Source of the DNA: Crocinitomicaceae bacterium
Lineage (GTDB): Bacteria > Bacteroidota > Bacteroidia > Flavobacteriales_D > Crocinitomicaceae
Direction of reading: 5' to 3'
DNA length: 64,000 nt
NCBI GenBank assembly: GCA_030727405.1
Contig: JANRBR010000011.1
Coordinates: 101,752-165,751, forward strand
The position numbers and the translations under genes were made by a program. Below are positions 14,011-16,545 of this stretch, piece by piece. The notes under the pieces were generated by a model, which saw only the letters and a program-made list of their open reading frames with translations, was not told where the DNA came from and searched no databases. Within the stretch, counting starts at the first letter, position 1; every line of letters starts with the position of its first letter.

Positions 14011-14059
14011 TAATGTAACCAAAATTGAATCATTCATTTTTAACTTTAAACAGTCCATC

Positions 14060-16396
14060 ATGAATAAAACCTTCTATGCTTTAACCATTTATTTATTAAG
14101 TCAGTTTTTTCTGAATCAATATTATTGTCAAAAAAACAGAAATCCATACAATACAGAATCGATAACGATTAAAATTAGTGACCAACTATGGATGACAAAA
14201 AACTTAAATGTGGATCATTTTTCAAACGGTGATTTAATAGCTGAAGCGAAAAATTTTGATGAATGGGAACATGCCCTAATGAATGGAGTTCCATCTTGGT
14301 GTTATTATAATTTTGATAGTTTAAATGCGTTTACCTACGGGAAATTATACAATTGGCATGCTGTAAAGGATTCAAGAGGAATTGCTCCAAAAGGATGGAA
14401 AATTCCCAACCTATCGGATTGGGAGAAATTAGCAAAAAATCTAAGTATAAAATACCCATATTACAGCTCGATAGATGAATTATTAATGAGCACTTCCTCG
14501 CATTGGAAAGACAACAATTTTGGGACAAACTTATCCAATTTCAATGCCGAACCTAGTGGCTACGTTGAAAGTAATAATTTTTCAGGCCTAGGTGAAATTG
14601 CCTATTTTTGGAGTCGTGATAGCTCCCAAAGTGTTTATTTTCAGTTCTATTATTCATCATTTACACTAAGATCTGGTTCATGCATGGATGGATTTAACGG
14701 AAATGGATTTGCTATTAGATGCGTTCATGAAGAATCGGTTCAAATTGACAAAAATGAACATATTCAATTTGACAATCCCTATTTCAAAGACATGAAGTAC
14801 ATTGATCAAAGATCTTCTACTACGGTAGGATCAGTTATTAACACCGATCAAAAAGACAGCATGTTATATTATGATATTTTTAAATCCACTTATCAAAAAC
14901 CCTTCTATTTATCTGATCATGAGGTCACGAATGGGGAATACAAAGCTTTTGTTCATTGGGTGAGAGATTCAATTGCTAGAGAAAAATTATACCATCGGTC
15001 AAGCGAATCAGAAAAGAAAAAATGGGGAAAAAAAACACCATTAAAAATAAGTGGTTATGCCCTCAATTGGAAGACGAAAATCGATTTTAAGGACTCGATT
15101 TTAGATGACATGTATTATCCAATGGACAGTAGATTTTACTCAAATCGAAGAGAATTAGATACTCGACTTTTATTTTTTAATTTTTACGACGAAAAAGGAG
15201 AATTAAACCGAATAAACATTTATCCCGATACACTTGCTAGCATGCGTGAATTTGAATATTCAGTTAATTATTTCTCTAATTATTTTTGGCACGATGCATT
15301 TTCAAATTACCCTGTAACGGGAATTACTTTTGATCAAGCCAAAGCTTATTGCGTTTGGAGAACTCACATGTATGAATTGGAACGATCCAAAAAGAAGCAT
15401 CCATATTTAAGCGTATCATTTAGATTGCCAACGCATGAAGAATGGGACCAAGCTGCAGTTAATAATTTACCCAAGTATGAACGAATTTATGACCCCAATT
15501 CGGATGGTTATTTTTGCAATTATGGCAGTAACTACTTAAGCTCAGGTTTGAAGTCGAAATTTGCCGTAGACGATCATTATGTTAGACACAGTCCACAATA
15601 TTCATTTAAACCTAATTACTATGGACTGTATAACATGTATGGAAATGTGAGTGAATGGGTTGAATCGGATTTATCTCAACAAAATTTTTACCAGGATTAT
15701 TTATTACTCAATTTTTATTTCCCCTCAAAAGACAGTACCTCTAGAAAAGATATCTTCATAACAAATCCTTATGATGGCAAAACAAGTAAAGTCGTTAAAG
15801 GCAGCAATGATCACTGGGAAATTTTGAAAAAAAGAATGCAATATTACCAAATAACTCCTGACTTATCCGATGAGGAGGCCCTTCAGGTTTTTCTCAATTT
15901 CAACTCAATAGATCCAAAATATAAAGACTCTATTTTCAATACTTCCGATTCGAAATTACATTGTTTTGGTAGAGATATGTATTATAAATCATTTAATCAA
16001 AAATCTCCTGATTCATTGTACAATGTAATTTATGGGATTTTTGAATTACATTGTTTTAATTCCATAGATCAGAATTATAGAAACTTAAATTTCCTAAACG
16101 ATTTTAAAAAATTCAAACAAAATAATACATCATTAAATTTTCGTAAGTTTTCGAATAACTGGCCTTGGACTATAGGTGATGATTTTACATTAGTTTGTGG
16201 TGGAAGTTGGATAGACCCAGCCCATTATCTCTTACCTGGCGTTTCTAAAGCTGTACCAATGAGCTTCTCTTCAACTACAATTGGATTCAGAGTTGCTGCT
16301 GACGTGGAAGGCTATATCATTCCAAAAGAGGCGCAAAAAAGACATAAAAAGAAAAAAAAGAAAAAGAAGGATGATTGGGTTTTTAATGACAAATAA
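14060..16396 (+). CDS. FISUMP-domain + GldK/GldJ-like formylglycine-generating-enzyme (FGE/sulfatase-modifying) domain fusion protein
   Basis: N-term GKLYNWHAVKDSRGIAPKGWKIPNLSDWEKL...GYVESNNFSGLGEIAYFWSRD...FAIRCVHE (FISUMP); then FYLSDHEVTNGEYKAFVHWVRDSIAREKL, NIYPDTLASMREFEYSVNYFSNYFWHDAFSNYPVTGITFDQAKAYCVWR, RLPTHEEWDQAA, YGNVSEWVESD, CGGSW, GFRVAAD. Confidence 0.85.
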   Translation: MNKTFYALTIYLLSQFFLNQYYCQKNRNPYNTESITIKISDQLWMTKNLNVDHFSNGDLIAEAKNFDEWEHALMNGVPSWCYYNFDSLNAFTYGKLYNWHAVKDSRGIAPKGWKIPNLSDWEKLAKNLSIKYPYYSSIDELLMSTSSHWKDNNFGTNLSNFNAEPSGYVESNNFSGLGEIAYFWSRDSSQSVYFQFYYSSFTLRSGSCMDGFNGNGFAIRCVHEESVQIDKNEHIQFDNPYFKDMKYIDQRSSTTVGSVINTDQKDSMLYYDIFKSTYQKPFYLSDHEVTNGEYKAFVHWVRDSIAREKLYHRSSESEKKKWGKKTPLKISGYALNWKTKIDFKDSILDDMYYPMDSRFYSNRRELDTRLLFFNFYDEKGELNRINIYPDTLASMREFEYSVNYFSNYFWHDAFSNYPVTGITFDQAKAYCVWRTHMYELERSKKKHPYLSVSFRLPTHEEWDQAAVNNLPKYERIYDPNSDGYFCNYGSNYLSSGLKSKFAVDDHYVRHSPQYSFKPNYYGLYNMYGNVSEWVESDLSQQNFYQDYLLLNFYFPSKDSTSRKDIFITNPYDGKTSKVVKGSNDHWEILKKRMQYYQITPDLSDEEALQVFLNFNSIDPKYKDSIFNTSDSKLHCFGRDMYYKSFNQKSPDSLYNVIYGIFELHCFNSIDQNYRNLNFLNDFKKFKQNNTSLNFRKFSNNWPWTIGDDFTLVCGGSWIDPAHYLLPGVSKAVPMSFSSTTIGFRVAADVEGYIIPKEAQKRHKKKKKKKKDDWVFNDK

Positions 16397-16545
16397 ATTC
16401 CTCTAGTTCGCTACGCTTTTTACCTGCCAACAATCTGTTGATTTATTTCTTTTTGGATATTAAACGGCATTTTTTCGACTGAGAAATGATTAAATTCTAT
16501 TCGTTTAATCTTGTTTCTTAAACCATTTCCAGCTTCCATTGTTAC

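Follow-up and report, generated by a model that had tools for sequence, protein, structure and literature searches.

Architecture and genomic setting of the fusion gene

The window, that is, the whole stretch of 64,000 nucleotides that was analysed, contains a gene for one exported protein in which a FISUMP domain precedes a GldK-like FGE (SME) core (Table 1). The FISUMP domain fills positions 1-186 of the 187 in the Pfam profile PF09603 (Fib_succ_major; 116.5 bits, gathering threshold 33.9) and exceeds the NCBIfam cut-off of TIGR02145 (94.3 versus 41.65 bits). The core matches the Pfam FGE-sulfatase family with 92.2 bits (gathering threshold 23.3, E 5e-26). Given these domain scores and the intact open reading frame, the fusion of a FISUMP and a GldK-like part is genuine, well above anything that chance would give.

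Table 1 Features of the fusion gene, with positions in the window
Feature	Position	Strand	Basis
FISUMP-GldK-like fusion gene, 778 aa	14060..16396	+	uninterrupted ORF, ATG start
Signal peptide, predicted SPI cleavage C23/Q24; QYYC, no lipobox	14060..14128	+	inspection, homologue comparison
FISUMP domain, aa 37-222	14168..14725	+	PF09603 E 2.3e-33; TIGR02145 over cut-off; fused-FISUMP clade 98/92
GldK-like FGE/SME core, aa 277-541; InsH shortened (~aa 308-384)	14888..15682	+	PF03781, TIGR03525, PorK alignment
Remodelled VR3 loop, aa 478-508, with a 7-residue insertion and without the PorG/SprF cysteine	15491..15583	+	alignment to PorK and 17 GldKs
Subfamily-specific insert, aa 563-698	15746..16153	+	alignment; no Pfam match; insert profile
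C-terminal end of FGE core, (V)CGGSW...IGFRVAAD	16184..16303	+	alignment
Lysine-rich C-terminal tail PKEAQKRHKKKKKKKKDDWVFNDK	16325..16393	+	sequence; kept in L011

An earlier note on this DNA had already placed a FISUMP domain at the N terminus of a single exported protein, and both points hold, the signal peptide being visible by inspection. Its comparison of the remainder with GldK and GldJ stands for GldK only. GldK (TIGR03525) is the best whole-length relative in NCBIfam (186.6 bits, E 9e-55; equivalog cut-off of 350 not reached), whereas the GldJ model (TIGR03524) gives 66.6 bits against a cut-off of 458.2. Apart from the common FGE core, all that the protein has in common with GldJ is a large insertion placed in the same loop (B-loop), and hhalign detected no relationship between the two inserts (E 0.64 and 0.17). 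The closest PDB relatives of the fusion protein are P. gingivalis PorK chains (~87 bits), and the FISUMP domain has no sequence relative in the PDB. The literature searched held nothing useful on FISUMP function or on GldK paralogs.

Membership of the SUMF1/EgtB/PvdO-type fold family, together with weak similarity to PvdO and SenA, could suggest an active FGE-family oxidase of the formylglycine, EgtB or PvdO type with a substrate of its own. This is highly improbable, as the only strong relatives are PorK and GldK, PorK lacks the FGE catalytic cysteines (PMC12421860), and no sulfatase or pathway gene lies adjacent.

The genome (42 contigs, 99.75% complete) encodes one other FISUMP protein. It also carries canonical gldK-gldL-gldM on contig C2 (L008), apart from the fusion gene, and a canonical GldJ of 884 aa, above its cut-off, on C39 (L009). 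Because of these separate copies, the fusion protein is a paralog beside canonical GldK and GldJ, and the search of the genome thus bore out what the earlier note had supposed. Its position outside a gldKLMN cluster was likewise seen: the gene is flanked by those for an Amidohydro_2 protein and an SDR, with no gld gene linked. GldN is single-copy and encoded on C41, and the window genome has no second GldN able to form a parallel ring. The canonical gldK is split by 100 N (L008:4371-4470) with the same ~50 bp repeated on both sides, which is a scaffolding gap and no broken gene.

Distribution, phylogeny and turnover of the subfamily

An insert of 135-155 aa between the GNVSEW and GGSW motifs defines the GldK-like subfamily to which the protein belongs; the whole loop in the window protein is ~180 aa long. 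Outside the subfamily, the insert profile produced two weak matches, in G134 and G152, which are HlyD-like coiled-coil proteins and were dropped as false positives. The survey covered 150 family genomes and, with the insert profile, 240 family, ~396 phylum-wide and 399 order genomes; as it rested on that profile, FISUMP domains joined to other FGE domains would escape it. Ten members were found, nine among the 240 family genomes and one, G675, from a different family within the order, and the ~396 genomes sampled across the phylum held none beyond the family and G675. In the window's genus the FISUMP domain is fused in G000, G231 (taken as the same as L011, MAG contig CANHMH010000146.1), G127, G189 and G222, and absent from G139 and G076; it is also absent from G125 and G146, of another genus of the family, and from G675. 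Tested homologues score 176-260 bits with TIGR03525, against the cut-off of 350, and a canonical GldK above this cut-off is present in all tested carriers (a set without G675) except G231, whose assembly is 83% complete. Most close relatives lack the gene.

The subfamily forms one clade beside GldK (support 100/99). AU tests of an origin inside the genus's own GldK gave p values of 0.085 and 0.20, by which such an origin is neither shown nor rejected, and the member outside the family, G675, speaks for an older origin or for transfer. Most FISUMP proteins examined have no GldK-like part, and the five fused FISUMPs form one separate clade (98/92), so that the fusion most likely arose once. On the GldK part, a single clade of the fused five is rejected by the AU test (p 0.01), and G139, which has no FISUMP domain, nests among the fused members and has therefore probably lost it.

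Between the window and L011, which share the locus, the fusion proteins are 67% identical and their neighbours 98% and 94%. The corresponding dN/dS is 0.145 for the gene, 0.10 for FISUMP and 0.23 for the insert, compared with 0.012 and 0.05 for the neighbours, values that are rough because synonymous sites are near saturation. The fusion gene is therefore under purifying selection yet fast-evolving.

The junction between the amidohydrolase and SDR genes (window 14011-16545) is a turnover site: it holds the fusion gene here, whereas sister species have a 246-aa SIMPL (DUF541) gene there or are empty save for 52-55 bp. On its right-hand side the window has the sequence AACCATTTCCAGCTTCCATTGTTA in common with the empty site of L093, and no mobile element was seen at the junction. 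G127 and G222 share DNA of 98% identity that starts right after the stop codon of the paralog, but the paralogs themselves are 41% identical and cannot be aligned by blastn. G223 has the same flank without the paralog. We read this pattern as allele replacement.

A secreted protein of 155 aa, with no Pfam or NCBIfam match, is encoded next to the fused paralog in G127, G222 and G189 and, without the paralog, in G223 (the four copies of the gene are L084:11042-11506, L083:2292-2756, L082:6687-7151 and L123:6691-7143). The G223 copy diverges in the signal peptide region, which looks like the end of a recombined stretch. The protein was found neither in the window genome nor on the L011 contig. 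Perhaps the paralog, as part of an exchangeable cargo locus, is a toxin or decoy that is secreted as an effector or antagonism factor, with this 155-aa neighbour as a possible partner, as the patchy distribution, the turnover of a single gene and the divergent alleles between near-identical flanks would fit such a role. We regard this as very unlikely, since the fusion protein has no toxin domain, no T9SS C-terminal sorting domain, no PADLOC match and no phage or plasmid relative that covers the fusion, and the supposed partner is inconsistently present.

Comparison with the ring proteins PorK and GldK

The fusion protein shares with GldK and PorK the FGE/SME core, the motifs EVTN.EY...HWVRDSIARxKL, YPDT, YPVVGIT..QAKAYC.WR, GNVSEW, GGSW and GFR, and part of InsH. 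It differs by its lack of the lipobox, the outer membrane (OM)-linking cysteine, native VR3 and VR4, the full InsH and a gldKLMN setting, as well as by its sub-cut-off score, the new insert and the FISUMP domain in front. For a closer comparison, contact residues described for the ring (PMC12421860, PMC12635249) were located in a joint alignment of eight paralogs with PorK and 17 GldKs; a ninth paralog (G675) was read by eye, and the counts exclude the tenth (G146), which is truncated by the end of its contig. AlphaFold on two-row alignments gave a pLDDT of 27.6 for the whole protein and 36.7 for FISUMP alone, and because no usable structure was at hand, the loss of interfaces is read from the sequence alignment.

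In GldK and PorK, a cysteine within an RGCF motif (C343 in F. johnsoniae, C356 in P. gingivalis) forms disulfides to SprF/PorG, and InsH is the bridging element of the PorK ring (PMC12421860, PMC12635249). This cysteine is present in 16 of the 17 GldKs but in only one of nine paralogs (G076, where the GC of the motif is kept); the window protein reads GYF. The cysteine of the PDT-x-C-W motif was considered as the PorG/SprF cysteine and rejected, as the paper puts that residue in the RGCF motif. One GldK above the cut-off (L068 of G241, 380 bits) is itself without this cysteine, which has been described as completely invariant in GldK/PorK.

Further ring contacts follow a similar pattern. Arg351 is an arginine in 15/17 GldKs and an aspartate in the window protein, and Lys442 and Tyr421, kept in nearly all GldKs, occur in none of the eight aligned paralogs. 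E365 is not kept in the window protein, though it varies among true GldKs too, most of which have R; Asp414 is kept in part among the paralogs, and true GldKs likewise differ from one another at some other contact positions. Most of the listed PorN-contact residues are missing and the PorN-anchoring loop is replaced. VR3 is seven residues longer and has a conserved motif of its own, N(F/Y)G...L.S(G)..K...DD, and the loop holding VR4 measures 202-244 aa in the paralogs compared with 55-62 in GldK, VR4 being swapped for the insert. The first half of InsH is kept and the second (PorK 188-247) is absent. Canonical GldKs of the window's genus (L061-L064, L067) are 656-694 aa long, versus ~416-543 elsewhere, owing to an enlarged InsH region. 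At the mature N terminus, read by eye, the window protein has QYYC/Q and its homologues have the SPI-type sites AFA/Q, GFT/Q, TLG/Q, LKA/Q and SFA/Q, whereas canonical GldKs carry lipoboxes such as LYAC, VYSC or LYSC.

At the level of sequence, this comparison shows the ring determinants to be lost. The ring-associated module that the earlier note had envisaged thus finds no support, the protein being without lipid anchor, the cysteine (in 8/9 paralogs), most PorN contacts, half of InsH and native VR4. The other suggestion made there, a double-headed surface protein, is possible. Since the fusion protein is not among the 65 matches of the genome to the T9SS C-terminal sorting domain (TIGR04183), a location in the periplasm or export by a non-T9SS route would be as likely as the surface.

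Alternatively, the protein could serve the gliding track or T9SS ring as an accessory subunit, cap or modulator. Its GldK-like half would bind GldK, GldJ or GldN, either at the ends of the track or in sub-stoichiometric amounts, and FISUMP and the insert would supply a new contact. The protein's GldK ancestry, the retained FGE core and first InsH half (DTRLLFF and other stretches are common to the genus's own GldK), the canonical GldK in nearly every carrier and an insertion whose B-loop position matches that in the track protein GldJ all point in this direction, and some GldK-type contact could remain because the first half of InsH is kept. A role on the track is nonetheless unlikely in view of the lost lipid anchor, OM-linking cysteine, VR3/VR4 contacts and half of InsH, the many close relatives without the gene, the lack of linked gld genes and the lack of an extra GldN in the window genome. 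Attachment through the residual InsH link is the main rival to a duplicate released from the ring. In a specific form, which we consider quite doubtful, a GldK-derived and horizontally exchanged protein would dock on the track via the kept InsH half without OM linkage and would add FISUMP-borne cargo or cap or tune the track. If docking on the track were true, a machine otherwise regarded as core would have this gene as a mobile accessory.

A possible accessory role outside the ring

On balance we lean towards a binding protein that is exported without a lipid anchor, is built on a GldK-derived scaffold and has an accessory role outside the ring. A copy of GldK would have been duplicated and released from the T9SS ring or gliding track, keeping the FGE (SME) scaffold and losing the membrane anchor, the OM-linking cysteine and the surfaces that dock on GldN and GldK. 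We infer that a protein without these determinants fails to join the ring. A conserved new loop of ~140-180 aa would have been gained, and in one branch the FISUMP domain would have replaced the N-terminal lipid and arm. The outcome would be a soluble two-module recognition protein, presumably in the periplasm or at the surface, that could bind a putative ligand via FISUMP and a remodelled FGE face made of VR3 and the insert. Such a protein would be carried as patchy single-gene cargo with fast-evolving, exchangeable alleles.

GldK and GldJ already illustrate how the fold of an enzyme, FGE, came to serve as a structural subunit. The subfamily appears to go one step further, a structural subunit having become an accessory, exchangeable and soluble protein that bears a new insert and an extra domain. 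Its members are natural variants that could reveal which GldK surfaces a protein can do without once it has left the ring. For annotation, a sub-cut-off match to GldK of this kind should not be taken as a T9SS component.

Other GldK-like genes were encountered in the family. In G139 (C2:220930-222325) and G076 (C90:339-1682), divergent GldK-like and GldN-like genes adjoin each other off the main gldKLMN cluster, possibly as a second, degenerate K-N pair. Another GldK-derived family consists of ~570-590 aa proteins whose single reading frame encodes two GldK-like FGE segments (G127:C1:131988-133304, G139:C17:32617-33930 and G189:C123:1109-2446).
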